A stretch of 64,000 bases of DNA from Mycobacteriales bacterium (lineage in GTDB: Bacteria; Actinomycetota; Actinomycetes; JAFAQI01), in NCBI GenBank assembly GCA_035550055.1, contig DASZRO010000031.1, positions 62,001-126,000 of the forward strand, read 5' to 3'. The position numbers were made by a program, and so were the translations under genes. Every line of letters begins with the position of its first letter. Positions within the stretch are counted from its first letter, which is position 1. The notes below the pieces were generated by a model that was not told the DNA's origin, did no database searches, and saw only the letters and a list, made by a program, of their open reading frames with translations. This document shows positions 37,649-62,113 of this stretch, in pieces.

Positions 37649-37688
37649 GGGTTCTCCTTCGGTTGGTCGGCTTGATGGGGTCTGCGGA

Positions 37689-46689: not shown

Positions 46690-47166
46690 ATGGACATCGC
46701 GCTGCGGACGATCGTCCTGTACTTCTTCGTCGTCGTGCTCATGCGTGTCGTCGGGCGCCGTGAGCTGTCCTCGCTGACCGCGGTCGACCTGGTCCTGCTG
46801 ATCGTGATGGGCGACGCGATCCAGCAGGGCCTGACCCAGGACGACTATTCAGTGACCGGCGCGATCATCGTCATCTCGACGTTCGCGGTGCTCCAGGTGG
46901 CGACCGCGTATGCCGGCTTCCGCTCGCGCACCGTACGTCGTCTGCTCGAGGGCCGACCGGTCGTGCTGATCGACGACGGCAAGCTGGTCGAGGCGAACCT
47001 GCGGCGCAACCGGCTGACCGCCGACGACGTCGCCGAGGAGATGCGGCTGCAGCAGATCATGTCCTTCGCAGACGTTCGCTGGGCGATCCTCGAGGCCAAC
47101 GGCCGGATCAGCTTCATCGAGCACCGCTCGCTGAAGGACTCCGCCGAGGCCGCAGGCACTTCCTAG
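46690..47166 (+). CDS. DUF421 (YetF-like) membrane protein
   Basis: A 158-residue protein of the YetF/DUF421 family: N-terminal transmembrane helices (RTIVLYFFVVVLMRVVGRRE; DLVLLIVMGDAIQQGL; IIVISTFAVLQVATAY), then the cytoplasmic part RPVVLIDDGKLVEANLRRNR. Function in the family is not settled; Bacillus members associate with the spore or envelope stress. GGAGG precedes ATG 46690. The stop overlaps the converging dioxygenase gene by 4 bases (CTAG). Confidence 0.82.
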   Translation: MDIALRTIVLYFFVVVLMRVVGRRELSSLTAVDLVLLIVMGDAIQQGLTQDDYSVTGAIIVISTFAVLQVATAYAGFRSRTVRRLLEGRPVVLIDDGKLVEANLRRNRLTADDVAEEMRLQQIMSFADVRWAILEANGRISFIEHRSLKDSAEAAGTS

Positions 47167-48008
47167 GCGGGTACGTCGCCTTCGAGGGTGATGCGGTGCA
47201 ACAGCCGTCGATGGCCGTGGTAGTCGTTGACCGGGTTGTGCTGGGCGCAGCGGTTGTCCCACATCGCCAACGAGCCGACCTGCCAGTTGAACCGGCAGGT
47301 GAACTCCGGCTTGACCTGGTGGGCGTAGAGGAAGCGCAGCAGCGGCTCGCTCTCGGCTTCGGTCATGCCGTCGAAGCGCGCGGTGTGCGCGACGTTGACG
47401 TAGAGCGCCTTGCGCCCGGTCTCGGGATGCGTACGGACCACCGGATGCACGGACTCGAAGTCCTGCGGCTCGACGCCCTCCAGCCCGCGGATGCGATCCT
47501 CGCGGGTCTTGCTGACATCCGCCCGCGCCGAGCTGTTGACCGCACGAAGACCGTCGAGGATCTCCCGCAGCTTCGGCGACAGCGCGTCGTAGGCCGCGTA
47601 CTGGTTGGCGAACAAGGTGTCGCCGCCGTACGGCGGGATCTCGCGGGCCAGCAGCATGGTGGCCATCGGCGGGCGTTCGAGATAAGTGGTGTCGGAGTGC
47701 CAGATGCCGCCGAAGTTGACGGTCTCGTGCGGCTCCTTGAGCACCGCGATGATCTCCGGGTGGCCGGGGATCCCGGGCACCAGCGGGTAGGCGCCGATCG
47801 GCCCGAAGCGCTTCGCGAGTCGCACGAACTGCTCGTCGCTGATCGGCTGGTCACGGAAGAACACCACCAGGTGCTCGAGCCACGCGCTGCGGATCTCCGC
47901 GACGACGTCGTCGTCGAGATCGACGCTGAGGTCGACCCCGCTGATCTCGGCGCCGAGCGCGCCGGCGATCGGCGTCACCGTGATGGTGCGGGTGCTGAGC
48001 ACCTGCAC
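47163..48008 (-). CDS. TauD/TfdA family alpha-ketoglutarate-dependent dioxygenase
   Basis: A 281-residue non-haem iron enzyme. The facial triad is His-x-Asp in IWHSDTT (~residues 103-105) and a distal His in DYHGHRRLLHR near the C-terminus; the Arg that binds 2-oxoglutarate follows. Such enzymes open C-S, C-O or C-N bonds (taurine, phenoxyacetates, alkyl sulfates) by hydroxylation. GTG 48008 (3 bases after the enoyl-CoA hydratase stop) or GTG 48002 starts the gene. The link with an alkyl-sulfatase-like gene at 1 kb is only suggestive. Confidence 0.85.
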   Translation of the reverse strand: MQVLSTRTITVTPIAGALGAEISGVDLSVDLDDDVVAEIRSAWLEHLVVFFRDQPISDEQFVRLAKRFGPIGAYPLVPGIPGHPEIIAVLKEPHETVNFGGIWHSDTTYLERPPMATMLLAREIPPYGGDTLFANQYAAYDALSPKLREILDGLRAVNSSARADVSKTREDRIRGLEGVEPQDFESVHPVVRTHPETGRKALYVNVAHTARFDGMTEAESEPLLRFLYAHQVKPEFTCRFNWQVGSLAMWDNRCAQHNPVNDYHGHRRLLHRITLEGDVPA

Positions 48009-48011
48009 AAA

Positions 48012-48881
48012 CTACTCGCTCGCGGCGGCGCTTTCATCCGCGGCCGCCGCCTGGCGACGCGCCATCTCGGCGGGCTTCATGTTGCCCTGCAGCACCTGAC
48101 CGATGAGCGCCTGCACGTCCTTGCTCATCGAGGCCAGCGTCACGAGGTCGTTCGAGCTCTGCCAGTGCACCCGCATGCCCATGAGCTCCCACGCCCGCTT
48201 GAGGTTGGCCTTGGTGGCCATCAACGTCGTGAGCGGCGCCTGAGCGACGTGCCGCGCGATCGCTTCGACCCGGTCCTCGAGCTGTTCGCGCGGGACGACT
48301 TCGTTGACGAGGCCGTACTCGAGCGCCTCCGCCGCACTGAGCGTCTGCGAGGTGTAGAGGTAGTACGCCGCGCGGCGCCAGTTCATGAACACCCACGGCT
48401 CGATCGAGCACTCGCCGGACGGCATGCCGAACCCCTGCAGCGGCGGGTAGCCGAAGTAGGCGTCCTCGGACGCGATGACCATGTCGGTCGTGAGCCCGTA
48501 GTGGGTGCCGCCGCCGACGCAGTAGCCGTGTACCGCGGCGATCGTCGGCTTGGCGAACTCCCACAGGTTCATGACCGGCTTGACGAAGATGTCGCTCTGG
48601 GCCTTCCACGCGCTGCCGCGCGCAGCCGTCTCCTCCGCGAAGGCGGGGTAGGCCTGCGCCATGTTCGCGACGATGTGGCCGGAGCAGAAGCCCTTCCCGT
48701 TCGCCTTGAGGATCACGACCTTGATGTCGTAGTCGCGCTCCGCGTCGTACAGCGCGGCGTCCACCTCTTCGGCCAGCACCTGGTCCTGGGCGTTGGCCTT
48801 CTCCGGCCAGTTCAGGATCACCCGGGCGATCGGGCCGTCCTTTTCGTAGATGATCCGCTGGCGGGTCTCGTTGAGGTCCAT
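48012..48881 (-). CDS. enoyl-CoA hydratase/isomerase family (crotonase) protein
   Basis: A 289-residue crotonase. Oxyanion-hole segments KGFCSGHIVANMA (about 63-75) and VHGYCVGGGTHYGL are present; a Glu sits in GECSIEPWVFMNWRRAAYYL (shown in part), but the usual second catalytic Glu position is not certain, so isomerase or hydrolase activity is equally possible. Followed by the TauD gene 3 bases on. The 14-bp motif at 48904 sits 22 bases before its ATG at 48881. Confidence 0.82.
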   Translation of the reverse strand: MDLNETRQRIIYEKDGPIARVILNWPEKANAQDQVLAEEVDAALYDAERDYDIKVVILKANGKGFCSGHIVANMAQAYPAFAEETAARGSAWKAQSDIFVKPVMNLWEFAKPTIAAVHGYCVGGGTHYGLTTDMVIASEDAYFGYPPLQGFGMPSGECSIEPWVFMNWRRAAYYLYTSQTLSAAEALEYGLVNEVVPREQLEDRVEAIARHVAQAPLTTLMATKANLKRAWELMGMRVHWQSSNDLVTLASMSKDVQALIGQVLQGNMKPAEMARRQAAAADESAAASE

Positions 48882-48903
48882 CTTGCGGACGCTAGCGGGT
48901 AGG

Positions 48904-48917
48904 TGACACGCGCGTCA
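48904..48917. promoter_or_regulatory. 14-bp operator, copy 1 (TGACACGCGCGTCA)
   Basis: Imperfect palindrome 22 bases upstream of the enoyl-CoA hydratase start on the minus strand, overlapping the stop of the deazaflavin gene. One of four copies of TGACRYNCGYGTCA in the window (others at 51996, 58310 and 59488). Confidence 0.55.
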
Positions 48918-49373
48918 GGGTCGGCTCGCCGTGTCGCGCGGCTCGCAGATCACGACCGGGATGTCACGGTCGGTGTTGCGCTGGTACCCCGCGTAGCCCT
49001 TGTAGGCGGCGACGATCTGCGGCCACAGCTGCGCCTTCTCGGTCGGCGACGCCGTCCGCGCCGTCATCGGCTTGGTCGCGCCGTCGATCGTGATCTCGAC
49101 GTCCGGGTTGGCGGCGAGGTTCTTGTACCAGTCGGGGTGGTCCTGCGAGCCGCCTTTCGAGGCGACGATGACGATGCGTTCCCCGTCGACGACGGGTGCC
49201 GTCAGCATCGTGGAGTACCGCTTGCCCGACTTTCTGCCGCGCACGTGCAGCTCGATCGGCCTCATCCCGAGGATGGTCTTCGGGAAGCGGCCGAAGGTCA
49301 GCGCCAGCAACGTGCGGTGCCCGGTCTCGAGCAGCCACGCGCCGGCACCGATGACCCGATCCGATGTGGGCAT
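48915..49373 (-). CDS. deazaflavin (F420)-dependent nitroreductase-fold protein (Ddn/DUF385)
   Basis: A 152-residue protein with the split-barrel fold of Ddn-like enzymes: PIELHVRGRKSGKRYSTMLT, VIVASKGGSQDHPDWYKNLA, NPDVEITIDGA. The R-G-R-K-S-G-x-x-Y-S-T motif and the GGSQDHPDWY signature are characteristic of F420-dependent quinone/nitro reductases. ATG 49373 matches the family start. A much longer in-frame stretch upstream is not coding. Confidence 0.85.
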   Translation of the reverse strand: MPTSDRVIGAGAWLLETGHRTLLALTFGRFPKTILGMRPIELHVRGRKSGKRYSTMLTAPVVDGERIVIVASKGGSQDHPDWYKNLAANPDVEITIDGATKPMTARTASPTEKAQLWPQIVAAYKGYAGYQRNTDRDIPVVICEPRDTASRP

Positions 49374-49445
49374 GCTGCCCCCCCTTCGTCGAGTGCCGAG
49401 CCTATTGCGGGCAGGTGATGCGGCGCTGGCGGCTAAGTACTGAGC

Positions 49446-51323
49446 ATGCGCAAAGGTCTGTGCGGTCTCGGCGCCGCCGTGACGCTGCTCGTCACGGCGG
49501 TCCCGGCGGTCGGCTCGGCGGCCGCCGCTGCGCCGTCCGCTCGCCCGGCCACGACGTCGACCGTGACGTCGACCGTCACGTCGACCACCGTGGCGATCCA
49601 GGGCTTCATCCCGGTGCCCGGCGCGAAGCTCGAGTACACCGTCGACCTGCCATCGGCGACCGGCAAGTACCCGACCGCGATGGTGTACGACGGCTACTGC
49701 GAAGGACCGGGTGCGCTGGCCTGCAACGACGTGGCGTCGGCGCACGCGTTGCTGGCGGCGGGCTTCGCCGTGATCGGCGTGAGCATCCGGGGCACCAGCT
49801 GCTCGACCGGCATCTTCGACGCGTTCACCGACCAGGAGTGGCGCGACGGCGCTGCCGCGGTCGAGTGGGTGGCTCGCCAGCCGTGGTCGAACGGCCGGGT
49901 CGGCATGATCGGCGACTCCTTCCCCGGCATCACCCAGCTCGGCGTCGCCGGGCTGCATCCCGCCCATCTCGACGCCATCGCACCGTTCCAGGTCACCACC
50001 GACATGTATCGCGACGTCGCCTACCCGGGCGGCATGGCCAACCTCGGGTTCGGGGCCTTCTGGGCCGGGGTCGACCAGCCGCTCAACTCCTATCGCAGCG
50101 GTCTCGATCAAGCGCTGAAGACGAAGGACCCCGGCTGCGTCGCGTCGATGCTGGAGAACCTCGCCGAGCTGCCGTTCCACAACGTCGCGTTGCAGGGCTT
50201 CCAGCACGCCTACGACGGGGCATGGTGGCAGCAGCACGAGCCCGGCGCCAACGTCGAGCGGATCCACATCCCGACGTTCGGATGCTTCACCTGGCAGGAC
50301 GACGAGGTGTCCAGCCGCGGCTCGTCGTACCTGAGCCAGCTCGACCCGAAGACCACCTGGGTCGTGGCGAGCAACGGCTACCACGGCATGTGCGAGCTGT
50401 CGATCCCGCGGGTCACCGACGAGCTGGTCGCGTTCTTCGACCGGTTCGTCAAGGGCGTGCACAACGGCTTCGCGCGCACCACCCCGCACGTGCAGCTGTG
50501 GCACGAGGCGCATGTCGACAGCGCCGGCCACAACGTGCCGAGCTGGGTGACGACGTACCCGTCGTACGCCTCGATGCCGGTGCGACCGATCTCGTTCTAC
50601 TTCAACTCCGACGGCAGCCTGTCGCTCACCCCGCCGAAGTCGGCGACCGCCCCGGCGAGGAGCTACGTCTACCCGCTGCCGGACCTCGGTAACGAGGACG
50701 GGGTGGTCGTCGGCCAGCACAACCTGCTGTGGAAGAGCGGCGACCCGACCGGCGGATCGCTGGCGTACACGACGCCGGCGCTCACCCACGACACGGAGCT
50801 GTTCGGCTCCGGGTCGGCGAACCTCTGGCTGAGCTCGACCGCGCCCGACACCGACCTGCAGATCACGTTGACCGAGGTACGCCCGGATGGCCAGGAGGTC
50901 TACATCGACCGCGGCTGGCTACGCGCGTCGCGCCGCAAGCTCGCGGTGAAGCGCTCGACCGTGCTGGCGCCGGTGCAGACCGACCAGGCCGCCGACGTCG
51001 AGGACCTCACGCCCGGCAAGCCGACGTACCTGCGGATCCAGCTCGACCCGTTCGACTACGTGTTCCGCAAGGGCTCGCGGATCCGGTTGTGGATCGATGC
51101 GCCGACCGGGCTGACCGGCGGCTGGTCACTGAACTTCCTCAACATCCCGGGCGTCAACAGCATCTACTCCGACGCGAGGCACCCGTCGGCGATCGTGCTC
51201 GGCGACCTGCGCAGCAGTGACCGGGCAGTGCCGCCCATGCCGAGGTGCGACACCATCCTCAACCAGCCGTGCCGCAAGAACCAGGCGTCCCTGCCGGTCG
51301 GGTCCCTGTCGGTCCCGCGCTAG
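49446..51323 (+). CDS. secreted CocE/NonD (S15) family hydrolase
   Basis: A 625-residue exported protein. Signal peptide (LCGLGAAVTLLVTAVPAVGS) then an S15 alpha/beta hydrolase with nucleophile Ser in GMIGDSFPGITQL (about residue 158), EWVARQPWSNGR before it, and catalytic His in NGYHGM. The C-terminal jelly-roll domain (PTYLRIQLDPFDYVFRKGSR, RLWIDAPT) is the cocaine-esterase/PepX type. Probably a secreted esterase or dipeptidyl peptidase. Its stop overlaps that of the converging aldolase gene by 4 bases (CTAG). Confidence 0.83.
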   Translation: MRKGLCGLGAAVTLLVTAVPAVGSAAAAAPSARPATTSTVTSTVTSTTVAIQGFIPVPGAKLEYTVDLPSATGKYPTAMVYDGYCEGPGALACNDVASAHALLAAGFAVIGVSIRGTSCSTGIFDAFTDQEWRDGAAAVEWVARQPWSNGRVGMIGDSFPGITQLGVAGLHPAHLDAIAPFQVTTDMYRDVAYPGGMANLGFGAFWAGVDQPLNSYRSGLDQALKTKDPGCVASMLENLAELPFHNVALQGFQHAYDGAWWQQHEPGANVERIHIPTFGCFTWQDDEVSSRGSSYLSQLDPKTTWVVASNGYHGMCELSIPRVTDELVAFFDRFVKGVHNGFARTTPHVQLWHEAHVDSAGHNVPSWVTTYPSYASMPVRPISFYFNSDGSLSLTPPKSATAPARSYVYPLPDLGNEDGVVVGQHNLLWKSGDPTGGSLAYTTPALTHDTELFGSGSANLWLSSTAPDTDLQITLTEVRPDGQEVYIDRGWLRASRRKLAVKRSTVLAPVQTDQAADVEDLTPGKPTYLRIQLDPFDYVFRKGSRIRLWIDAPTGLTGGWSLNFLNIPGVNSIYSDARHPSAIVLGDLRSSDRAVPPMPRCDTILNQPCRKNQASLPVGSLSVPR

Positions 51324-51973
51324 GCCTGGTTGGCCTTCTTCGTCGTGCCGTAGCCGCGCTTCATCGCCGCCTCGATGACCTTCTGCAGGTCCGCGTCGGT
51401 GAGCAGTGTCGGCGTGCCGAGGGAGGTCGCGCGGCTGTAGAGCTCGCAGCACCACTCGAGCATCTCGAGGGTCTCGCAGGCCCCCTCGATGGTCTGCCCG
51501 TGCGCCACGGAGCCGTGGTTGGCCATGAGCGCAGCGGTCTTGCCTTCCAGGGCGGTGGCGACGTTCTGCGCGAGCTCGGGACTGCCGAAGGTGGCGTACG
51601 GCGCGGTGCGCACCGACCCGCCGAGCATCAGCTGGCTGTAGTGGATGACGGGCAGCTCGGTGTGGGTGCACGCCACCGCGGTGGAGGCCAGCCCGTGCGC
51701 GTGCGCGACTGCCTTCGCGAACGACTTCTTGTAGACGAGCAGGTGCAGCTCGAGCTCCGAGGTCGGAGCGAGGTCGCCGTCGACGATCTGCCCGTCGAAG
51801 TCGACGACGGTCATCATCTGCGCAGTCAGCTCCTCGAGCACGCCGCCGGTCGGGGTGATCACCACGTGCTCGTCGGCCCGGATCGACAGGTTGCCCGCCG
51901 TACCGGTGACGAGACCTTTCGCGGCGACCCGATGACAAGCCGCGGCCAGCTGTGCGCGTTCCTTCTCGAGCAT
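51320..51973 (-). CDS. class II aldolase/adducin family protein
   Basis: A 217-residue protein of the fuculose-1-phosphate aldolase / ribulose-5-phosphate epimerase fold. Zinc ligands are visible in AVAHAHGLASTAVACT (His-x-His) and ANHGSVAHG; the catalytic acid in TSELELHLLVY. It should cleave or epimerise a phosphorylated sugar or a related small acid. ATG 51973 is preferred to the in-frame GTG 52003, because the latter lies inside the operator at 51996-52009. Confidence 0.82.
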   Translation of the reverse strand: MLEKERAQLAAACHRVAAKGLVTGTAGNLSIRADEHVVITPTGGVLEELTAQMMTVVDFDGQIVDGDLAPTSELELHLLVYKKSFAKAVAHAHGLASTAVACTHTELPVIHYSQLMLGGSVRTAPYATFGSPELAQNVATALEGKTAALMANHGSVAHGQTIEGACETLEMLEWCCELYSRATSLGTPTLLTDADLQKVIEAAMKRGYGTTKKANQA

Positions 51974-51995
51974 GGCGAGGACGTTACCGGTTGCC

Positions 51996-52009
51996 TGACG
52001 CACGCGTCA
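51996..52009. promoter_or_regulatory. 14-bp operator, copy 2 (TGACGCACGCGTCA)
   Basis: Core of an 18-bp near-perfect palindrome (51994-52011) 22 bases upstream of the aldolase ATG, the same distance as copy 1 has from its gene. Confidence 0.6.
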
Positions 52010-52023
52010 GGGTCGGTACCGCC

Positions 52024-53661
52024 TCAGCGCCGACACCATGGGTTCGCCGGGACGCCGGCGCATGCGTTCGGCATCGACTCGAGGTGCTTCGGCAGCGGGT
52101 GCATGACCACGTGCGTCAGCCGCGGGTAGTGGTCGGTCGGCAGGCACGGGACGCTCACGCCGGCCACGAGCGCCACCTGGGTGTTGCACAGCACCTCGTC
52201 CAGGAACAGCGGGTTGAGGTTCGCCGGAACGTCCTGGCCCGTGCACGACGGGTGACTGCTCTGCAGCGTCGCCGAGTCCGAGGTCAGCTTCCCGCTGGTG
52301 TCGGTGTTGCCGTGGTAGCAGTCGGTCGGCTCGTTGTTCTCGAGGTTGAGCTGGTCGAAGTCGCCGTTGGTCGGGTTCCCGAAGAAACCGTTGTGCGTGT
52401 AGGTGTTGCCGATCAGCGCATCGCCGTACTCGTCGTACAGACAGCTGCCCGGACCGGTCACGACGAAGTTCGGAGTGCCCCCGGTGCACGGCCCGCCGCT
52501 GTCCGGGAACGGGACGATGATCGTGCCCCAGGAGCCGTTGTTGACGAACTTGTTGTCCATCACGGTGTCGTTGCGGGCGCCGGAGAACGACGCCCCGGTG
52601 CCGACCGGGCCCTGCGCCGCCTCGCCGGACTTCGGCACGTTCGGGTTGTTGTTGTTCGCGAACACGTTCTGGTAGAGCACCCAGCACGTCGGAGCGCCCT
52701 TGATCGGCGGCTTGATGCCCTTCGGGCATGCGCCGTTCTGCGGCGGCGGGTTGTCGCCGTTCTGGCTGTTGGTGTCGAAGCCGTCCTCGTTGTGGTCGAA
52801 GCGGTTGTGCTCGATCAGCATCGTGCCGCCCGAGTTGCTGCCGGAGTAGCCCAGCGCGTTGAACTCCGACCGGCTGTCACGAATGATCTGCGTGCACAGC
52901 TGCTGGCAGGCGCCGATGTAGTAGCCCGCGTCGTCGAAGTTGCTCGCGTAGTCGTGCGCGAACACCCCGCCCTGCCAGGCGCTGGAGAACAACCCGTACG
53001 CCGCGGCGTCGGACACCCCGTTGTAGAAGGTGGACGTGGCCGACAGGTAGGTCGCGAGGAAGCCCCACCCGTGGATCCGGTTCTTGCTGTTGAGGCCGTC
53101 CCACCAGATCTCGTTGCCGGTGTCACCGCCCGGGCCGCTCAGGAAGTTGCACGCGGTGAGGTTTTCGACGTTCACGTTGTCGGCCTGGTAGGCGACGATG
53201 CCGTTGAGCCCTTCGTGCTTCGGGCCGTAGTTCTGTGCCGCCGGGTCGCTGCTGCACTGCGGGTAACCGGGCTTGGTCCCGTCGACCACGACCGTGTTGC
53301 GGTTCATCCCGCGGATCGTGATGTCGGGCGTGGTCACCAGGACCCCCGACGGGATGTCGGGACTGTCGGCCGGCGCCCGGCTCGTCGTCGTCTTGTAGTC
53401 CCCGGGTGCGACGAGGATCCAGTCGCCCGGGCGGGCGGCGTCGACCGCGGCCTGGATCGTGGCGAACTGGCCCTTGATGTGGTGGTAGGTGCCCACCCGC
53501 AGGACCCTGCCGTCGGCGCCGCGAGCGGCTGGCGCCGCGGCGGCGCTCGACACCGCCGCGCGCGCCGGGCCGGCCGCGGCGGAGCCGCTCAGCCCGACCC
53601 CCACCGCACTACCGGCCAGGACCGGTATGAGGAAGAGAACCCTCACCAGACGCGCTTGCAC
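52024..53661 (-). CDS. secreted parallel beta-helix protein
   Basis: A 545-residue exported protein with an N-terminal signal (RVLFLIPVLAGSAVGVGLSG) and a right-handed beta-helix domain of the pectate-lyase/carbohydrate-binding type: ATIQAAVDAARPGDWILVAPG opening motif, then repeats such as ITIRGMNRNTVVVDG, VENLTACNF, MLIEHNRFDHNEDGF, VLYQNVFANNNNPN. Several Cys pairs. Probably binds or cleaves polysaccharide; no catalytic residues stand out. Starts at GTG 53661; ends 15 bases past the 51996 motif on the other side. Confidence 0.78.
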   Translation of the reverse strand: MQARLVRVLFLIPVLAGSAVGVGLSGSAAAGPARAAVSSAAAAPAARGADGRVLRVGTYHHIKGQFATIQAAVDAARPGDWILVAPGDYKTTTSRAPADSPDIPSGVLVTTPDITIRGMNRNTVVVDGTKPGYPQCSSDPAAQNYGPKHEGLNGIVAYQADNVNVENLTACNFLSGPGGDTGNEIWWDGLNSKNRIHGWGFLATYLSATSTFYNGVSDAAAYGLFSSAWQGGVFAHDYASNFDDAGYYIGACQQLCTQIIRDSRSEFNALGYSGSNSGGTMLIEHNRFDHNEDGFDTNSQNGDNPPPQNGACPKGIKPPIKGAPTCWVLYQNVFANNNNPNVPKSGEAAQGPVGTGASFSGARNDTVMDNKFVNNGSWGTIIVPFPDSGGPCTGGTPNFVVTGPGSCLYDEYGDALIGNTYTHNGFFGNPTNGDFDQLNLENNEPTDCYHGNTDTSGKLTSDSATLQSSHPSCTGQDVPANLNPLFLDEVLCNTQVALVAGVSVPCLPTDHYPRLTHVVMHPLPKHLESMPNACAGVPANPWCRR

Positions 53662-53713
53662 AATGCTCTCCCCTCCGCCGAAGCGGGTTGTCCTGACCTG
53701 CCGACGTGCCGAC

Positions 53714-54205
53714 TTACTTGACCAGTCCGCCGTTGGCGTTGAGCGCGTACCACGCGCCGTGGAACTGGCGGTTGCCGATGTTGATCACCGACCGCGGGCC
53801 AGTGTCGAAGCGATAGGTGTGCAGCGGGTGGCCTTTGTAAGTGAGCTCCCGGAGCTTGCCCTGGTAGGGAATCGTGCCGAGCAGCGACCTCTTCACCCCC
53901 GGGCCCACCACGGGCTTGCCGGCCGTCGTCACGGCTGGCCAGTCCTTCTCGCAGCCCTTGATCGTCCGGCACACGTCCTTGTTGGGCTTGTCGCGCGCGA
54001 ACATGTAGATCGTGTAGCCGGTCTTGTCGACCAGCAGGGGCCCGACGTAGGTCTTGGCGACGCTCACGGTCGGCCTGACGTGCGCCGGTGCCTTGCCCGC
54101 CGTGGCACCGGAAGCGGCGGCCGAACCCAACACGACCAGCGCTGCGATCGCCGGCACGACCGCCCAACGCGGCCGGGCACTTCCGCGAGCAGCTCTGCCT
54201 CTCAT
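53714..54205 (-). CDS. secreted PF03640 repeat protein
   Basis: A 163-residue exported protein. Signal peptide (PRWAVVPAIAALVVLGSAAA) followed by the PF03640 domain (secreted repeat of unknown function): PLLVDKTGYTIYMFARDKPN, VCRTIKGCEKDWP, LLGTIPYQGKLRELTYKGHPLHTY in part. The Cys pair and the W-P motif are typical. Similar proteins are often found near haem or redox enzymes. Divergent from the DyP-like gene across a 76-base promoter gap. Confidence 0.8.
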   Translation of the reverse strand: MRGRAARGSARPRWAVVPAIAALVVLGSAAASGATAGKAPAHVRPTVSVAKTYVGPLLVDKTGYTIYMFARDKPNKDVCRTIKGCEKDWPAVTTAGKPVVGPGVKRSLLGTIPYQGKLRELTYKGHPLHTYRFDTGPRSVINIGNRQFHGAWYALNANGGLVK

Positions 54206-54281
54206 GACCGCCTCCACGCGTTCGACTCCGGGTGCTCGGCGGCAGCGTATCGAGCGCTGTCGATTCGTGTATGTTCCGGCG

Positions 54282-55565
54282 ATGCAGGAGAACTCGGATG
54301 CAGTACGCCGGGGCCTGACGCGTCGCCGATTCGTCGCGGGAGCGTCTGCACTGACGGCGGGTGGGGTTGCACTCGGGCGCGGCACGAAGCGGGCGTTCGC
54401 GAGCACGAGGCCGAAGATGGTGCCGCTCGGCACCCAGCCGCACGGGCTACCGGCCCGTCAGCACGCGTGGGGTGACTACACCGCCAAGGACGCCTACGGC
54501 AACGGGACGGCGCCCAAGTACGACCGGCTGATGTTCTTCGACGTACGAGGCACTCCGACGCCGGCGCACGCGCGACTGCTCGAGTCGCGGCTGCGGGTGC
54601 TCGAGCGCCACTTCCACTGGAGCCACACCGGCCTGCTGTTCACGGTGAGCTGGGGGCCGAGCTACTTCCGGCTCCTCGGGGTCCGGTCGCCGATCCCCGA
54701 GGCGACCAAGCTGTCGAGTTTCGAGCACCCGGAGATCGACAACTACGACGTGTGCATCCACCTCGCCTGCGACGACGACGCCCGGCTCGACCAGGTCGAG
54801 GCCGCCCTGGTCCGTGGCCACAAGCTGCACGGCGTCAACGGTTCGCTGTCCCTCAAGCCCGCCCTCACGTGGCGGGAGACCCGTACCGGGTTCACCGGGG
54901 TCGGCATCCCGGCGAGGCGTCAGGACGTCAAGGGCATCCCCGCCGGTAACCCGGTCCCCGCAGGCTCGCCGTTGTTCATGGGCTTCAAGTCGGGCCTTCG
55001 CAAGAACCAGGCCAGCGAGGACGCCGTCACGATCAAGGACGGACCGTTCGCCGGCGGCACCACGATGCATGTGAGCTACATGCGCGAGACGCTGGGCGAC
55101 TGGTACCGCAAGCTCTCCGAGCAGGACCGCCGGGCGCTGATGTACTCCCCGGAGACCGATGCCGCCGCCGAGCAGCGGATCATCGAGGACAAGACCGACA
55201 CTTCCGCCAACACCAAGCAGATCGCCTCGGCGATCCACACCTACGGCATGGTCGGGCACTCCCAGGCGACCGCACAGGCTCGCAAACACGGCAGCCCGCT
55301 GATCATCCGCCGCGACTTCAACACCACCGACGACGGCTACGCCGGCCTGCACTTCGTCGCGGTGCAGCGCACCATCGAGGACTTCGTCGTCACCCGCAAC
55401 GCGATGAACGCCAACGGCGCGCACAACATCAACAAGAAGGTGACCGCGACCAAGAACAACGGCATCAACGCGTTCATCAAGGTCCGGCGTCGCGCGAACT
55501 ACATCATGCCCTCGCGCGCGGACCGGTCCTTCCCGCTGCTGCCCGGTCGCGGCGCCGTTCTGTAA
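54282..55565 (+). CDS. Tat-exported DyP-like (DUF7405-type) protein
   Basis: A 427-residue protein with a twin-arginine signal (TRRRFVAGASALTAGGVAL). The body resembles the dye-decolourising-peroxidase superfamily in layout: VCIHLACDDDARLDQVEAAL in the first ferredoxin-like half and PLIIRRDFNTTDDGYAGLHF, VAVQRTIEDFV in the second, with a His in VGHSQATAQARKHG as possible haem ligand. A GxxDG signature is not evident, so peroxidase activity is uncertain. ATG 54282 places the RR motif near the start. Divergent to the PF03640 gene. Confidence 0.65.
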   Translation: MQENSDAVRRGLTRRRFVAGASALTAGGVALGRGTKRAFASTRPKMVPLGTQPHGLPARQHAWGDYTAKDAYGNGTAPKYDRLMFFDVRGTPTPAHARLLESRLRVLERHFHWSHTGLLFTVSWGPSYFRLLGVRSPIPEATKLSSFEHPEIDNYDVCIHLACDDDARLDQVEAALVRGHKLHGVNGSLSLKPALTWRETRTGFTGVGIPARRQDVKGIPAGNPVPAGSPLFMGFKSGLRKNQASEDAVTIKDGPFAGGTTMHVSYMRETLGDWYRKLSEQDRRALMYSPETDAAAEQRIIEDKTDTSANTKQIASAIHTYGMVGHSQATAQARKHGSPLIIRRDFNTTDDGYAGLHFVAVQRTIEDFVVTRNAMNANGAHNINKKVTATKNNGINAFIKVRRRANYIMPSRADRSFPLLPGRGAVL

Positions 55566-55640
55566 CGGACTCGGTCACGACCGACCGGAACCGAAGCCGA
55601 CGCTGGCCCTCCGCCCGAGGACGAAAGGCCAGATCGACGA

Positions 55641-55717
55641 TGGTGCGCCGCCAGGGACTCGAACCCCGGACCCGCTGATTAAGAGTCAGCTGCTCTAACC
55701 AACTGAGCTAGCGGCGC
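55641..55717 (-). tRNA. tRNA-Lys (CTT)
   Basis: A 77-nt tRNA on the minus strand with a 7-bp acceptor stem (GCGCCGC/GCGGCGC), D-loop GCTCAGTTGGTTAGAGC, anticodon stem around CTCTTAA giving anticodon CTT, T-arm GGTTCGAGTCC, and an encoded CCA end. The anticodon identifies lysine (AAG codons). Confidence 0.95.
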
Positions 55718-55775
55718 GTCTGGCCGAGACTAGCAGCGGCCCGGAAGGCTCGCCCTCGAACGGGATCGAGTCGAG

Positions 55776-57725
55776 TCAGCCGATCCTCATGGCGCGAGCC
55801 ATCGTGCCAGTGCCGTCGGTCACCGTCACGGTTCGCCGGTCCTCGCTCCACCGAGTGGCAAGCACGTGGCCGTCTCCCCCGCGCACCACGACGCGCCCGC
55901 CGGTGAGCGAGACGCGCAGCGGGGCGTACACGTGCACCGTGAACGAGGTCGTCACCGGTTGGCCGGCTGCGTCGAGGATGCGCGCGGTGACGTGGTGCAC
56001 GCCGACGCCGAACGCGTGCGTGACGATGTAGGGCTTCAGGTCCGAACCCGAGAAGTCGTGGTAGCCGGTCACCGCACCGAAGCTCCAGTGCACCTTGCCG
56101 GTCGGGTTCTCCTTGATGTCGATGCTGCCCACCGGCAGCCCGTCGGCGGTCGTCGCCTCGGGCAGGTCAGGCGGGGAGTACGTCGCGATCATCCGTACCC
56201 GCGCCTTGCCGTCAGGCCCGGCGTCGGTGACGAACGGGCCGCCGACGACCTGCAGGCCGGGGTCGAGGGCCTGCAGGGGCTGGGTGCTGACCGGATCGAG
56301 CACCTGCGGAGTGGTCGCGAAGCCGACCGCCGACAGGTTGGCCTCCTGGCCCGCGACCACCAGGTCGCCGGTCAGCGCAGACGCCGAGTTGGTGAAGGTG
56401 TCCGACGGGTAGATCTCCGTGAACGGCGTTACGTACGCGGGGTAGAAGTAGCCGAGGTCGTCCTGCCCCTTCGACAGGGCGATGACCGTCGCGCCGGGGG
56501 CGGCGCGCTGCAACGCGTGGCGGATCTCCGGGAACGGCTCCCCCGGCATGGACACGTAGGCGAGATCGCCCACGCGCAGCGCGGTCACCCAGGTGCCGAC
56601 GTCGAGGCCCGTCTGGTACGGCGGGACGTCGGCGCGGTCGACCGGGTACTGCCCGAGCACGTTCTCGATCTGTCGCTTCTGCGCGTCGGGCAGGTTGTTG
56701 GCACTCACGAGCGCAAGCAGCAGTGCGCCGGTGCCGGGGATCTGGATCATCCGCTGGGAGGCGGCAAGCCGGTTGCTCATGACCGGCTGCGCGCGAGCGA
56801 GCGCCGAGTCGACGAGGTCGAGGACGTTCGCGGCGAACACGTGGTCCTCGGGGATGTCGGTGGCCTGCACCGGCGTCTCCTCGCGGCCCAGCGTCGCCGG
56901 CCCGACGATCGCGACGCCGCCGAGCTGGCGTTGCAACGCCGCGTGCACCAGGCCGGGATAGTCGGTCGTCAGATGGCGGATCCGCTCGCCGTTGACGATG
57001 TCCGGGTGCGCCGGGACGGTCGCGTACGTCGCGATCGTCGCCCCCGTCTGCGGGCTGACCGCCTGCAGGACGGTCAGCAACGGGTCGTCGGCCCAGCCTG
57101 CGAAGGCGTCGTACTGGGACGCTGCGACGAGATCGAGCGAGGAGGCGTTCGCGGTCCCGAAACGCAGGTAGGCCGGCCGTGCCGCGGCCGCCGCCTCGAC
57201 CAGCGCCTTCGTCTCGGCGGCGGTGACCGCCTTCAGGTACGCCGTGGGGACCGGTCCCCACAGCCCTTCCAGCGTCGGGGCCGAGTGGCTGTGGGTGGCC
57301 GAGACGATGATGTCGGCCGCGCTGATCGACGGGCCGTGACCGGCGGCGTCGATCTGCTTGGCGGCCTGCGTCCTCGCCGCCGTGATGCCGTACTCGGGCC
57401 CTTCCTGGTAGGCCGCGAACTCGGCCTGCGCGTCCACCAACGCGAACTCGACCGCGGTCGTGCCGTTGCTGATGTACATCGCCCGTGCCGACAGCCGCGG
57501 CCCGATGACGCTGCCCGGCTTGATCGGCGGGCTCACGCCGAACCCGCCGGAGTAGACCGTCACCTTCGGGTTGAGCCCCACCACGGCTGCCCCGACCTGG
57601 AACACCGGCGGCTGCGCCACGCCTGCCGACGCGCCGGCAGGCGTCCCCGCGAGCCATGTCCCCGCGACGGCCACCACCGACACAACCGACACACCCGACA
57701 CAACCGACACAATCGACACCCGCAT
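55776..57725 (-). CDS. secreted neutral/alkaline ceramidase-like protein
   Basis: A 649-residue exported protein. The signal peptide (RVSIVSVVSGVSVVSVVAVA) is encoded by a 9-bp tandem repeat. The body matches non-lysosomal ceramidase-like proteins: AVVGLNPKVTVYSGGFGVSP, LSARAMYISNG, and the zinc-site motif SATHSHSAPT (His-x-His), with a further site in SMPGEPFPEI and a beta-sandwich C-terminal domain. Likely cleaves an amide or ester lipid outside the cell. ATG 57725 is chosen because it heads the signal peptide; in-frame codons to 57755 are possible. Confidence 0.78.
   Translation of the reverse strand: MRVSIVSVVSGVSVVSVVAVAGTWLAGTPAGASAGVAQPPVFQVGAAVVGLNPKVTVYSGGFGVSPPIKPGSVIGPRLSARAMYISNGTTAVEFALVDAQAEFAAYQEGPEYGITAARTQAAKQIDAAGHGPSISAADIIVSATHSHSAPTLEGLWGPVPTAYLKAVTAAETKALVEAAAAARPAYLRFGTANASSLDLVAASQYDAFAGWADDPLLTVLQAVSPQTGATIATYATVPAHPDIVNGERIRHLTTDYPGLVHAALQRQLGGVAIVGPATLGREETPVQATDIPEDHVFAANVLDLVDSALARAQPVMSNRLAASQRMIQIPGTGALLLALVSANNLPDAQKRQIENVLGQYPVDRADVPPYQTGLDVGTWVTALRVGDLAYVSMPGEPFPEIRHALQRAAPGATVIALSKGQDDLGYFYPAYVTPFTEIYPSDTFTNSASALTGDLVVAGQEANLSAVGFATTPQVLDPVSTQPLQALDPGLQVVGGPFVTDAGPDGKARVRMIATYSPPDLPEATTADGLPVGSIDIKENPTGKVHWSFGAVTGYHDFSGSDLKPYIVTHAFGVGVHHVTARILDAAGQPVTTSFTVHVYAPLRVSLTGGRVVVRGGDGHVLATRWSEDRRTVTVTDGTGTMARAMRIG
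57678..57720. repeat. 9-bp tandem repeat within signal peptide codons
   Basis: About 4.8 copies of CGACACAAC-type units (CGACACAAC, CGACACACC, CGACACAAC, CGACACAAT, CGACACC). On the minus strand each unit encodes V-S-V or a close variant, so unit gain or loss would lengthen or shorten the hydrophobic core without a frameshift. Confidence 0.8.
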
Positions 57726-58239
57726 GACGAGAAGTTCGCCACCCGTCGAGCCCAACCTTGTTGGTCTTTCGAGGGGGTCTGAAAGACCAAGAACGTTGGG
57801 CTCGGCGCACGCTTTGGCGTTCTACGGCGAGACTCCGGGCGCCACGGTGGCCGAGCTCACCGACCGGCTGCGCCGCGCGGCCGAGCGCACGACGCCGCTG
57901 TCACTGCGCCTGACCGGGGTCGGCTCCTTCCCGGCCGATCCGGTCAAGGCGAAGGTGCTCTGGCTGGGGATCGACGGCGACCTGACCGAGCTGAGCCATC
58001 TCGCCGACCGGTGCTCGGCCGCCGGGCGCCGGTCAGGCCTGGACCTCGAGATCCGCAAGTACCGGCCTCACCTGACGATCGGGCGCCCCCGCCACGGCAC
58101 GATCGACCTTCGCCCGACGCTCGAGGCCCTGCCGCCGTACGCCGGGCAGCCGTGGCGAGCGACCACGCTGCGACTGGTCCGCAGCCATCTCGGCCCGAAG
58201 GTGCGCCACGAGACGCTCGACGAGCTTCCGCTCGGGTGA
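57724..58239 (+). CDS. 2'-5' RNA ligase (ThpR) family protein, N-terminus apparently truncated
   Basis: About 171 residues from ATG 57724. The C-terminal half has the second HxT motif of the family (RPHLTIGR, about residue 115). The first motif (usually H-x-T-L-x-F-L-G) is replaced by HALAFYGE with no alignable ~35-residue start, and the N-terminal residues (SSPPVEPNLVGLSRGSERP) look unrelated. The reading frame also carries a 56-bp inverted repeat. TTG 57796 is an alternative start. It may be a decayed or inactive copy. Confidence 0.55.
   Translation: MTRSSPPVEPNLVGLSRGSERPRTLGSAHALAFYGETPGATVAELTDRLRRAAERTTPLSLRLTGVGSFPADPVKAKVLWLGIDGDLTELSHLADRCSAAGRRSGLDLEIRKYRPHLTIGRPRHGTIDLRPTLEALPPYAGQPWRATTLRLVRSHLGPKVRHETLDELPLG
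57748..57803. repeat. 56-bp inverted repeat between divergent genes
   Basis: GAGCCCAAC (57748-57756) pairs with GTTGGGCTC (57795-57803) and GGTCTTTC (57763-57770) with GAAAGACC (57781-57788); a 6-base internal mismatch lies between them and the loop is 10 bases. It sits just upstream of the ceramidase-like start. Possible operator or hairpin. Confidence 0.6.
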
Positions 58240-58309
58240 GTCACCCGCTCAGATTCGGCTGATCGGGCTAGTCAGGGGTTTATTCGTCGAAGGACACAGC
58301 CAACAAACC

Positions 58310-58323
58310 TGACATTCGTGTCA
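58310..58323. promoter_or_regulatory. 14-bp operator, copy 3 (TGACATTCGTGTCA)
   Basis: Centre of a CTGACA-TTCG-TGTCAG palindrome (58309-58324) 46 bases upstream of the DMT transporter start; same consensus as the other three copies. Confidence 0.5.
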
Positions 58324-58369
58324 GATGGGTAGCGACACGAGCGCCCGACGTCCTTACGCTGGATACCTC

Positions 58370-59434
58370 ATGTTCTCTCCCCTCGGCCTCCTCGCGATTG
58401 GGCTGTCGTTTGCGACCGCCCTGTGCTACGCCGCGGGTTACGTGCTGCAGTACCACGAGGCCCATCAGGCGCCCGACCGACTGTTCCTGTCCTCCAAGAA
58501 GCTGATCCTCGAGCTCGTCCGGCACCGGATCTGGGTGTTCGGCGTCATCGTGATGTTCATCGGCAGCGGCCTGCAGGCGGCCGCGCTCGCCTGCGGCAGC
58601 CTCGCGGTCGTCGAGCCCATCCTGTGCACGGCGTTGCTGTTCGCGTTGCCGCTGTCCGCGGCGTGGCGCCGGGAGCGGCTGACCCGACGCGACTGGTACG
58701 GCGCGCTCGCGGTCTGCCTCGGCCTCGCCCTGCTGCTCGGCGTCGGCTCGCCCAGCGTCGGCAAGCCGTCGATGCCGCAGAGCGAGTGGTTCCTGGTCAC
58801 CGCGGCGGCGTGGGCCGCCGCGCTGTTCTGCGTCTCGGCCGGCAAACGGACGACCGCGGCCGCCCCGCGAGCGGCGCTGATCGGCGCCGCGTCCGGCATC
58901 CTGTCCGGTCTGCAGGACGCCCTGACGCACTACACGCTGCACGAGATGTCGGTGCACGGCTACTTCTCCCAGACGCTGTCGTGGGAGATGTGGGTCCAGA
59001 TCGTGGCCGGCTTCTACTCGATCGCGCTGATGCAGTCGGCGTACAAGGCCGGACCGCTCACCGCGGGCCTGCCCACGATCGCCGTCGGCGAGCCGGTCGT
59101 CGGCATGCTGATCGGCATCGTCGCCCTCAGCGAACACCTCAACGCCTCGACCGCCGCCCTCACCTTCGAGTGCATCGGCGGGCTGGTGATGGTCGCGGGG
59201 ACCTGGGTGTTGTGCCGCTCGGAGCTGGTGCTCGGCCGCAACCACCCGGCACGCCTCGCCCACGAGGCGATGCTGTCGGCGCAGGAGGCGGTCCAGCAGC
59301 TCGAGGCGAAGCTCGCCCCGGTCAAGGACGCGGCAGAAGCCGCGCTGGGAGCGGCTCGCCGGCCGGTCTCGGCGAGAACCCGCTACGCGAGCCTGCAGGC
59401 GGTCATGGTCTTCCTGTTCTGGCGCAACCGCTGA
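58370..59434 (+). CDS. DMT-superfamily (EamA-type) transporter
   Basis: A 354-residue membrane protein with about nine or ten transmembrane helices in two homologous halves (first half PLGLLAIGLSFATALCYAAG; second half TIAVGEPVVGMLIGIVALSE, with the E-P-V motif typical of the superfamily). A cytoplasmic basic/alanine-rich tail (AKLAPVKDAAEAALGAARRP) ends it. NIPA-like ion or metabolite export is possible. ATG 58370 starts the first helix; an upstream in-frame ATG (58325) abuts the operator at 58310. Confidence 0.75.
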   Translation: MFSPLGLLAIGLSFATALCYAAGYVLQYHEAHQAPDRLFLSSKKLILELVRHRIWVFGVIVMFIGSGLQAAALACGSLAVVEPILCTALLFALPLSAAWRRERLTRRDWYGALAVCLGLALLLGVGSPSVGKPSMPQSEWFLVTAAAWAAALFCVSAGKRTTAAAPRAALIGAASGILSGLQDALTHYTLHEMSVHGYFSQTLSWEMWVQIVAGFYSIALMQSAYKAGPLTAGLPTIAVGEPVVGMLIGIVALSEHLNASTAALTFECIGGLVMVAGTWVLCRSELVLGRNHPARLAHEAMLSAQEAVQQLEAKLAPVKDAAEAALGAARRPVSARTRYASLQAVMVFLFWRNR

Positions 59435-59487
59435 CCTGACCGCCGTCGACTCCTGGCGGCGCTGCGCCGTACGATTCGCTCCGTTGC

Positions 59488-59501
59488 TGACACGCGTGTC
59501 A
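59488..59501. promoter_or_regulatory. 14-bp operator, copy 4 (TGACACGCGTGTCA), perfect
   Basis: Perfect 14-bp palindrome (16 bp with flanking C/G, 59487-59502) 13 bases upstream of the GTG start and immediately before the ribosome site GGAAGGAG. A repressor bound here would block the whole four-gene operon. Confidence 0.65.
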
Positions 59502-59514: not shown

Positions 59515-60378
59515 GTGACCGACGAAGTCAAGCCGTCCCGTCGACAGGTGGTGGGCGCGATCGGCGCCGCGCCGCTGCTCACCCTGGGTCCGACCATCCT
59601 GCGAGACGGCCGCCCGGCGAGGGCTGCCGACACGAACGCCGCCGACAAGGCGCCGGCGCGGAAGTTCCGGTTCTTCACCGAGCACGAGGGCGCGGTCATC
59701 AAGGCCGCTGCCGCGCGGCTCGTGCCCGGGCCCGACGACGACCCGATCGAGAAGCTCTACAACTCTCCGGGCGCGACGGAGGCGGGCGTCGTCTACTACA
59801 TCGACACGATGCTGGCGGCGTTCAGCTTCAAGGTCCCGAAGATCTTCGCGGGAGGCCCGTGGAGCAACCGGCACCTCGGCGGGTACGGCGACCACGAGAA
59901 CTACATGAAGCACTTCGTGTCGCCGGCCCCTCGCCAGGAGTGGGCGTGGCGCCGTCGCCTCCACCACCTCCAGAAGCAGTACCGCTCCGCGGTCAAGCAG
60001 CTCGACGCGGCTGCGGGCGGCGACTTCAGCAAGGCCAGCCAGTCGACCCAGGACCAGGTGCTCACCAAGCTCGGCGACGTACGCAACCTCATCTTCACCA
60101 ACACGATCGAAGGCATGTACGCCGTGCCGGAGTACGGCGGCAACCGCGACACGGTGGGCTGGAAGAGCGTCTACTGGCCCGGCGACTCCCAGCGGCGTGG
60201 CTACACCGCGGCCGAGGTCGAGCACAGTGACGGCCCTGACGTCGTCGTCCTGACCCCGACGCTCGAGGCGGTCCTCGGCGACCTCGGCATCGTCAGTGCC
60301 GCCCGCCGCGTGCGGCGCCAGCGGATGCTCGGGGTCAACCGCGTCAACGTCGACAGCGCGGAGCAGCCCGATGCGTGA
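59515..60378 (+). CDS. Tat-exported gluconate 2-dehydrogenase subunit 3 family protein
   Basis: A 287-residue protein of the gluconate 2-dehydrogenase subunit 3 family (PF13618), which carries the Tat signal for its GMC flavoprotein partner. Here the signal is SRRQVVGAIGAAPLLTLGP (twin arginine, residues 8-26), followed by RFFTEHEGAVIKAAAARLVP and VYYIDTMLAAFSF. GTG 59515 follows a good ribosome site and the perfect operator. Its stop overlaps the GMC start by 8 bases. First gene of the operon. Confidence 0.8.
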   Translation: MTDEVKPSRRQVVGAIGAAPLLTLGPTILRDGRPARAADTNAADKAPARKFRFFTEHEGAVIKAAAARLVPGPDDDPIEKLYNSPGATEAGVVYYIDTMLAAFSFKVPKIFAGGPWSNRHLGGYGDHENYMKHFVSPAPRQEWAWRRRLHHLQKQYRSAVKQLDAAAGGDFSKASQSTQDQVLTKLGDVRNLIFTNTIEGMYAVPEYGGNRDTVGWKSVYWPGDSQRRGYTAAEVEHSDGPDVVVLTPTLEAVLGDLGIVSAARRVRRQRMLGVNRVNVDSAEQPDA

Positions 60379-62113
60379 GCGCGCGATCGTGATCGGCAGC
60401 GGCGCAGGCGCCTCGGTCACGAGCATGGTGCTCGCCCACAACGGCTGGGACGTCGTGGTGTTCGAGAAGGGTCCCCGCTACATCGACGGGTGGGAGAAGC
60501 CCGGCCCGATCAAGACGGTGTTCTCCAACGACGAGCTGAAGTTCGACCGCAACTTCGACCAGCCGGACCCGATCTCGGAGCCACGCACGTTCCGCGCCAA
60601 GGCCGGCGGTGACGTGATCGTCGGCGTCGTGAACCCGCTCGCCTCGGTAGTGGGAGGCGGCACCACTCACTGGGACGCGAAGGTGCCGCGCTTCTGGGAC
60701 GTGGACTTCTCGAAGAAGTCGATGCTCGGGCCGTTCCCGGGCGCCGACATCGAGGACTGGCCGTTCGACTACGACGAGATCGCGCCGTACTACCAGCGGA
60801 TCGAACGGCTGATGGGCGCGCAGGGCGACCAGGACGCGATCCCGGACATCGTGCTTCGGCACGCCCCCGGCAAGCGCGGGTTCGTGATGCCGCCCGGACC
60901 GCAGCAGCTGTCGTCGACGACCGTTGCGAAAGGCTGCCGAGCGATCGGGCTGCACCCCTACCCGTTCCCGATGGCGATCAACTCGCGCCACCATCTGGGC
61001 CGTCCGGCGTGCAACGACTGCGGCCAGTGCAGCGACTACGGCTGCCCGATCGGCGCACGGATCGGCGCACTCGCGATCATGCAGCACGCTCACCAGACCG
61101 GCCACGTCGAGATCCACGCCGACACCATGGTCGACAAGGTGCTCCACGACGGGAAGCGCGCCAGCGGCGTGCGGTACGTCGACCGGCGCGGCAAGCGCCA
61201 CAAGATGGACGCGAAGGTCGTCGTCATGTCGTGCTCCGCGATCGAGACGTCGCGGTTGGCCCTGCTGTCGAACCTGCCGAACCCGCACGACCGGATCGGC
61301 CGCGACATGATGTTCCACAACTTCATGGACGGCTTCGGCATCTTCACCGCCCAGCGGATGCACGCCTACCGCGGCCGTTCGATCACGATGTGCTGCGAGG
61401 ACTTCGCGGATCCCGACTACGTCGGTGCCCGCGCGTTCGCGAAGCTCAACGGCATCCCGTACTTCCGGGGCGGGATCATGGAGATCGGCGGCAGCGAAGA
61501 CGTCATCGGTGAGGGCACCGAGCTGCAGTTCGTCCTCGACGCGCTCGGCAGTGCCCCCGGCGTCAAGCCGTTCGGCAGCACCTTCAAGACGCTGATGCGC
61601 ACCAGCCTGCTGCGGGACCGGCTGGCCGGCATCGACTTCATCGGCGAGGATCTGCCCTATCCGACCAACCGGGTGGACCTCGACCCGAAGGTGAAGGACT
61701 TCCGGGGCGTGCCGGTGCCCAGGCTGACCTACTCGCAGGGCAAGCACGAGCACATCGCGTCGCTGTTCTACATCCCGCTCATCACCGCGCTGCTCAAGGC
61801 CTCCGGCGCCGACGCGATCGGCGCCGCGTTGCCCGAGTCCGTCGTCAACAGCCTGACCGGCGCGAACATCCCGCACGGCGCTCACGTGATGGGTGGCATG
61901 CGGATGGGCAAGGACCCGCGTACGTCGGCCACCGACGGCACCGGCCGGGTCCACGGGATGGACAACGTGTTCGTCGCCGACGGCTCGGTGTTCCCGAGCA
62001 GCGGCGCGCAGAACCCGACCAACACGATCCTGGCCACCGCGCTGCGCAACGCGACCCTGAACTTCGGGCACGGCGCCGACCATCTCGGCGCCGACCACGG
62101 GGACGGCGCCTGA
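60371..62113 (+). CDS. GMC-family FAD oxidoreductase (large subunit)
   Basis: A 580-residue flavoprotein with FAD-binding AIVIGSGAGASVTSM at the N-terminus, a Cys cluster CNDCGQCSDYGCPIG (residues ~214-228, a possible cluster or disulfide set), GMC hallmarks VGGGTTHWDAKVPRF and VADGSVFPSSGAQNPTNTIL. No own signal: it is likely exported folded with subunit 3. It oxidises an alcohol or sugar at the membrane; the cytochrome c subunit of true gluconate dehydrogenase is not encoded here. TGATG overlap with the next gene. Confidence 0.85.
   Translation: MRERAIVIGSGAGASVTSMVLAHNGWDVVVFEKGPRYIDGWEKPGPIKTVFSNDELKFDRNFDQPDPISEPRTFRAKAGGDVIVGVVNPLASVVGGGTTHWDAKVPRFWDVDFSKKSMLGPFPGADIEDWPFDYDEIAPYYQRIERLMGAQGDQDAIPDIVLRHAPGKRGFVMPPGPQQLSSTTVAKGCRAIGLHPYPFPMAINSRHHLGRPACNDCGQCSDYGCPIGARIGALAIMQHAHQTGHVEIHADTMVDKVLHDGKRASGVRYVDRRGKRHKMDAKVVVMSCSAIETSRLALLSNLPNPHDRIGRDMMFHNFMDGFGIFTAQRMHAYRGRSITMCCEDFADPDYVGARAFAKLNGIPYFRGGIMEIGGSEDVIGEGTELQFVLDALGSAPGVKPFGSTFKTLMRTSLLRDRLAGIDFIGEDLPYPTNRVDLDPKVKDFRGVPVPRLTYSQGKHEHIASLFYIPLITALLKASGADAIGAALPESVVNSLTGANIPHGAHVMGGMRMGKDPRTSATDGTGRVHGMDNVFVADGSVFPSSGAQNPTNTILATALRNATLNFGHGADHLGADHGDGA

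Follow-up and report, generated by a model that had tools for sequence, protein, structure and literature searches.

A 64,000-nucleotide stretch of an uncultured actinobacterium (Mycobacteriales bacterium, GenBank assembly GCA_035550055.1, contig DASZRO010000031.1, positions 62,001 to 126,000; hereafter the window) carries four copies of a 14-bp palindrome within 10.6 kb, each upstream of a different transcription unit. These units encode an enoyl-CoA hydratase with a TauD-type dioxygenase, a class II aldolase, a DMT transporter, and an operon for a GMC oxidoreductase with its gluconate 2-dehydrogenase subunit 3-like small subunit (Table 1). An earlier note made from the sequence alone had read the palindromes as the sites of one repressor; the copies are exact matches at the positions it gave, and there are no others in the window. 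The element has the consensus CCTGAC-RYNNRY-GTCAGG, also given as CCTGACRYNNRYGTCAGG. Judging from comparison with related genomes, the four palindromes are very probably bound by a single TetR-type regulator of scattered breakdown genes, found in a few uncultured actinobacteria.

Table 1. Operators, predicted promoters and genes in the window, and operators elsewhere in the genome (contig:position). Scores are those of the symmetric 20-bp matrix described in the text.
Feature	Position	Strand	Remarks
Operator 1	48904..48917	.	upstream of enoyl-CoA hydratase-TauD unit (minus strand); score 21.8
Predicted -10, TAGCGT	48889..48894	-	9 bp from operator 1, 7 nt before ATG; leaderless
Enoyl-CoA hydratase/isomerase family gene	48012..48881	-	Pfam ECH_1 4.8e-34; ATG at 48881
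TauD/TfdA-family dioxygenase	47163..48008	-	3' of hydratase; Pfam TauD 3.3e-72
Operator 2	51996..52009	.	upstream of class II aldolase (minus strand); not conserved; score 22.6
Predicted -10, TAACGT	51981..51986	-	9 bp from operator 2, 7 nt before ATG
Class II aldolase (L-fuculose-phosphate aldolase-like)	51320..51973	-	Pfam Aldolase_II 2.1e-47; PDB 4c24 1e-36; assumed start ATG 51973
Operator 3	58310..58323	.	upstream of DMT transporter; score 28.4
Predicted -10, TACGCT	58355..58360	+	31 bp from operator 3, 9 nt before ATG
DMT/EamA-family transporter	58370..59434	+	NCBIfam NF038012 161.1 bits, cut-off 50
Predicted -10, TACGAT	59470..59475	+	upstream of operator 4; aligned in 3/3 sequences
Operator 4	59488..59501	.	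between predicted -10 and GMC operon start; score 25.3
Gluconate 2-dehydrogenase subunit 3-like protein	59515..60378	+	Pfam Gluconate_2-dh3 8e-15
GMC oxidoreductase	60371..62113	+	Pfam GMC_oxred_C/N; PDB 6a2u 9.7e-40, 8k6k 1.5e-36
Zinc-dependent alcohol dehydrogenase	62113..63333	+	third gene of GMC operon
Window TetR genes	5827-6477, 28404-29045		
Divergent acyl-CoA dehydrogenase pair operator	C8:8930, C116:475		strong site
D-2-hydroxyacid dehydrogenase / FGGY kinase operator	C8:15425		divergent; in 4/4 genomes
Acyl-CoA dehydrogenase / hydratase operator	C8:19100		divergent; in 4/4 genomes, fourth hydratase confirmed
Operator before second GMC pair	C108:28590		strong site
Operator	C20:47764		strong site
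Weaker operator before P450	C49:43252		score 17.3; similar gene in G005 has match 15.8

The comparison covered 13 genomes of the order, the window's own (G000) included, with 100 bp taken as the upstream region; G012 and locus L010 are one contig and enter the count as one. For the hydratase, the DMT transporter and the GMC small subunit, TGACN6GTCA was found upstream of the orthologues in all six regions from other genomes, two for each gene. It stands 36-37 bases before the hydratase start in all three genomes concerned (G005 C133:3405 and G012 C27:3749 besides the window), exactly 60 bases before the DMT start (G005 C138:9391 and G012 C27:18799), and 24-27 bases ahead of the GMC small-subunit start (G005 C138:8273 and G011 C51:13792), so that the distance varies by no more than 3 bp for each gene. 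In G012 the site precedes the DMT gene; 7 bp separate the end of that gene from the GMC small subunit. Only 32-38 of 100 columns are identical across all three sequences in the three upstream alignments; the offsets at which all eight template columns agree number 1, 4 and 3 of 87, and each is the operator or overlaps it. Paralogous hydratases (C47, G005 C61 and G012 C105; 50-51% identical) have no site, with a best score of 5.9.

The best candidate for the regulator is a TetR gene that apparently belongs to the GMC operon. On the window's contig it lies at 126792-127190, 792 bp past the window end, as the last gene and cut by the contig end; alignment to contig C8 extends the operon past the window by a second dehydrogenase, a small protein and this TetR gene, which on C8 follows two genes after the start of the paralogous zinc dehydrogenases. 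The TetR gene is part of a site-bearing unit or follows one directly, and the operator lies upstream of the TetR-carrying unit in G005, G011 and G012 as well as at the window's GMC operon; gene order suggests co-transcription. The earlier note had proposed to look for a TetR-like gene with its own copy of the motif upstream and had taken the regulator to be encoded outside the window; this candidate lies next to it. Two other TetR genes do lie inside, and their orthologues do not track the motif.

At E<=1e-30 the candidate occurs in 4 of 393 genomes of the class, in a survey that for most genomes scored the best seven candidates: G000 (three copies, including those on C8 and C116), G005, G011 and G012. 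In these four the 16-mer CTGACN6GTCAG counts 12, 15, 12 and 16, versus 2-10 in the other nine genomes of the order, and TGACRYNNGYGTCA counts 13, 13, 14 and 9 versus 0-5, with 1-2 and 0-4, respectively, for its reversed control. The TetR genomes thus take the four top motif-count ranks of 13, for which chance is 1 in 715 under random order, a figure weakened by the kinship of the four; of the nine negative genomes, two reach only 68% completeness. Homologues of the GMC small subunit (E<=1e-20) are present in six of the 13 genomes, own included. The GMC homologues in G007 and G010, two genomes in which the search did not find this TetR, have no upstream site; the best scores are 1.8 in G010 and 14.5 in G007, the latter for a copy inside the GMC gene.

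The candidate has an N-terminal helix-turn-helix of the TetR type, with matches to TetR-type models at residues ~22-97, and its helix-turn-helix stretch, RVDDIVK.AKTSHGTFYLYF.NKEDLF, has only two varying positions in all six copies. A search of solved sequences returned 48 distinct matches, of which the best eight are EthR. The predicted model is all-helical with moderate confidence (pLDDT 73.4), and at E<=0.001 it matches five PDB entries, four of FasR and one of PhlH. Its likeness to the FasR, EthR and FadR folds only hints at an acyl-type ligand.

Operator conservation at orthologous promoters and co-occurrence with one TetR protein support a single regulon, as had been proposed, and one larger than the four units of the window. 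With a probability of roughly 0.8, the palindrome is the operator of the TetR-family regulator whose gene lies in the GMC operon, itself one of the controlled units. DNA binding, repression and the inducer are inferred here from sequence: a TetR dimer would bind each palindrome and block RNA polymerase, either by covering the -35 region, where the operator lies 9 bp upstream of the predicted -10 element, or, at the GMC operon, from just downstream of it. An inducer, perhaps an acyl-CoA or another pathway intermediate, would release the protein and jointly induce the genes for the transporter, oxidation and acyl-CoA enzymes; the TetR gene itself would be under feedback.

The promoter layout bears on how such a regulator could act. 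TANNNT near the start codon is a mark of leaderless actinobacterial transcripts, and the hydratase and aldolase promoters share the order operator, 9 bp, TANCGT, 7 nt, ATG. The hexamer TAGCGT with its 9-bp gap to the operator recurs in all three hydratase orthologues, 7, 8 and 7 nt from the ATG. Two palindromes had been placed exactly 22 bases before a start codon, which holds for the hydratase and, only if the assumed ATG is the start, for the aldolase; this spacing is best read as promoter layout at apparently leaderless promoters, with the operator over the predicted -35 region. The DMT promoter, whose gene very probably starts at 58370 instead of 58325, has the order operator, 31 bp, TANNNT, 9 nt, ATG in 3/3 genomes, and the rightward acyl-CoA dehydrogenase has 31-33 bp between operator and TANNNT in 5/5 copies. 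At 24 of the 36 starts examined, TANNNT was not seen 4-12 nt before the tested position (a conserved motif in place of the start codon for the kinase and some of the D-2-hydroxyacid dehydrogenases); the 24 are those of the GMC small subunit (4), the leftward acyl-CoA dehydrogenase (5), the kinase (4), the D-2-hydroxyacid dehydrogenase (4), the acyl-CoA dehydrogenase of the third pair (4) and the hydrolase (3).

Operator and -10 element are separated by one of two spacings: 9 bp in a first group, the hydratase and the aldolase, and 31-33 bp in a second, the DMT gene and the rightward acyl-CoA dehydrogenase. The spacings differ by about two helical turns and are preserved from genome to genome. 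In the second group the operator is centred at about -52 of the predicted start, upstream of the -35 box, where it fits activation equally with repression. The protein could then be an activator or a dual regulator that represses where its site overlaps the core promoter and activates from near -52. We consider this unlikely: TetR proteins are 'often repressors' (PMC4482099), the -10 elements are predictions, and the -52 sites could act on the divergent gene or on a promoter farther upstream that escaped notice. The two conserved spacings would make a clean setting for position-dependent TetR action at apparently leaderless promoters.

It is quite improbable that the regulon, though real, belongs to another regulator, be it one of the two window TetR proteins or another TetR or repressor elsewhere in the genome. 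TetR-looking open frames, named by eye, do adjoin sites in G011 (C51:13905 and C103:6407). The window TetR genes, however, have no strong site near them, and their orthologues (E<=1e-25) do not follow the motif, being missing from motif-carrying G005 and present in low-count genomes (G006 and G008 for 28404-29045, G001 for 5827-6477), whereas the TetR of the GMC operon has the motif's phyletic pattern, in a comparison that covered these three TetR proteins.

Window counts alone are insufficient proof of a motif. TGACN6GTCA occurs five times in the window versus 1.13 expected, and 2 of 100 shuffles reach five. The fifth copy (TGACGGGGACGTCA, 33253-33266, score 11.8) lies between converging genes at 31525-33246 (+) and 33264-34034 (-), 6 bp past the end of the first, a pyrroloquinoline quinone (PQQ)-propeller gene, and is perhaps a terminator arm or chance. 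Genome-wide this short pattern has 73 places (50 of which were listed) versus 26 for the reversed control and was dropped as too noisy for delimiting the regulon. The 16-mer has 12 places versus 6 reversed. A stricter pattern, derived from the four window copies themselves, has nine places in the 3.54-Mb genome versus none reversed, four of them within one 10.6-kb part of the window. Seven of the nine lie upstream of a gene start (the four window sites, C8:15425, C108:28590 and C20:47764, the last standing 11 bp ahead of the ATG in an open reading frame). The symmetric matrix, built from 21 hand-chosen sites of G005, G011 and G012 with lower-scoring sites of these relatives omitted, ranks the window operators 1 to 4, followed by 11.8, and its maximum in 200 first-order Markov copies of the window is 19.7. 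Because the training sites were found with window-derived patterns, the ranking is partly circular, and the matrix serves as motif description and score, not as independent proof; the independent test is the alignment of orthologous upstream regions.

Several further observations weigh against the motif or its proposed role. With up to two mismatches allowed, the window has 18 matches versus 27.9 expected, below expectation; half-sites with a spacer of 7 give six window matches (five with a spacer of 6), and permuted half-sites give up to four. The reversed 16-mer is also higher in G000 and G011 (6, 2, 5 and 1 in the four TetR genomes versus 0-3). The remaining two strict matches lie within a gene (C18:70993) and over a probable start codon (C35:42947), matches of 12-19 bits occur inside or at unrelated genes, for example in open frames at C35:43268 (19.4) and C107:7771 (17.4), and C116, a contig similar to C8, contributes two of this genome's 12 places. 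The aldolase operator is absent at both orthologues (88% identical in G005, 74% in G011), and among four more distant aldolases (34-45% identical) only that of G012 is within a site-bearing operon; the proposed comparison of orthologous upstream regions upholds three of the four units and leaves the aldolase a doubtful member outside this genome. That the palindromes are mere chance in a GC-rich genome, noticed for their upstream placement, is nevertheless most improbable: it fits the mild window enrichment, the similar counts of other spacers or permuted half-sites and the low two-mismatch count, but is contradicted by the retention of the site at promoters of orthologues (6 of 8 regions, aldolase included) and at other units, as well as by the strict-pattern counts. 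The window statistics by themselves are weak; it is the comparison across genomes that carries the case.

In this genome as a whole, the operator recurs at about 12 transcription units, and it also stands at orthologous units of the three related genomes (Table 1). At the divergent acyl-CoA dehydrogenases it reads CCCTGACRCAAATGTCAGGG, with one varying position in 5/5 copies. Sites in the relatives also precede amidohydrolase, PQQ-propeller and more acyl-CoA dehydrogenase genes, some named by eye. Sites in or at the start of a hydrolase coding region (C8:4412, C116:4993, G005 C138:2224, G012 C27:29355 and G011 C51:3135) recur in 5/5 cases with scores of 12.5-17.2 and are possible regulon members. 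Places on C95, C109, C52 and C44 and at C5:144744 were excluded as low scoring, within genes or at unrelated genes, and C4:6655, a 16-mer match, has no score >=12. As matrix scoring covered ~0.29 Mb of this genome, the list is incomplete. Positions 61235-64000 of the window are 78-79% identical to two other contigs of this assembly, C8 (C8:52-2864) and C116, and C8 and C116 share 82% identity; from their sequences, the likenesses of the window's contig (C31), C8 and C116 could reflect paralogous copies or strain variants.

The targets combine two enzyme types. The nearest relatives of the aldolase are L-fuculose-phosphate aldolases, those of the kinase are FGGY sugar kinases, and the nearest solved relatives of the GMC protein are glucose dehydrogenase and the large subunit of fructose dehydrogenase; further targets are acyl-CoA dehydrogenases and hydratases. 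Ten C8 proteins were compared with NCBIfam: an SDR exceeds a subfamily cut-off (NF005861, 393.8 of 373), and no equivalog cut-off is passed among the matches listed. The single pathway of uptake, oxidation and chain cleavage suggested earlier is supported only in part, with targets outside the window being mainly acyl-CoA and sugar-type enzymes. A possible but doubtful reading is that a catabolic pathway not yet described lies behind the regulon. Sugar-type enzymes (a glucose/fructose-dehydrogenase-like GMC complex, FGGY kinase, D-2-hydroxyacid dehydrogenase and fuculose-phosphate-aldolase-like enzyme), acyl-CoA enzymes and a P450 would then all process a single compound, such as a glycosylated lipid or terpenoid, and the controlling TetR clade, so far family-restricted, may repress or activate according to operator position. 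An operator, its likely regulator and a gene set can be assigned to an uncultured actinobacterial family, which turns scattered genes into one testable unit and offers a handle on a carbon source.

Other parts of the window hold an MlaD/Mce-like and MlaE permease cluster of the lipid/steroid import type (8667-15614, minus; two proteins tested, the rest assigned by eye) and a fatty-acid-synthesis-like cluster (33264-39718, minus) with a ketoacyl synthase, a carboxyltransferase and, by eye, reductase-like and acyltransferase-like frames. Two long secreted-looking proteins (55776-57755 and 52024-53661, both minus) have no Pfam matches at E<=0.001, and a DUF7405 protein lies at 54054-55565 (2.1e-101).

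Literature searches by literal operator sequences gave only unrelated papers and, in the papers covered, no description of the operator, and searches for a GMC oxidoreductase combined with gluconate 2-dehydrogenase subunit 3 and TetR gave no match. A LacI-type operator was dropped by eye on the rule of a central CG, which the palindrome lacks. Among named regulators, the candidate scores far below the NCBIfam equivalog cut-offs for FasR (30.5 bits versus 330) and Bacillus FadR (37.9 versus 200), and it also stays under those for AcuR (31.0 versus 247) and, with TIGR03968, under the one for the mycofactocin regulator MftR (29.8 versus 224.9). By fold, FasR of Mycobacterium tuberculosis matches at E 2.4e-4 and FadR of Bacillus halodurans at 1.3e-3, with a TM-score of ~0.5 and a root-mean-square deviation of 7-8. 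EthR of M. tuberculosis is the best solved sequence relative (E 3.3e-12), with a match over residues 3-131 of 237, little over half of the candidate; its motif is described (PMC4482099) as larger and multi-copy with no classical palindrome, a complex operator in contrast to the simple palindrome found here. BkaR (PMC3920632) is likewise a TetR repressor that controls its own expression and has palindromic operators at an operon for catabolism, but its operator core is GTTA(N)T(N4)A(N)TAAC. KstR2 of mycobacteria (PMC3068626) differs in half-site and spacing, with the operator AnCAAGnnCTTGnT versus the consensus given above, and the genes here yielded no assignment to a steroid pathway; it too is a TetR protein with a 14-bp inverted palindrome at a few catabolic promoter regions.

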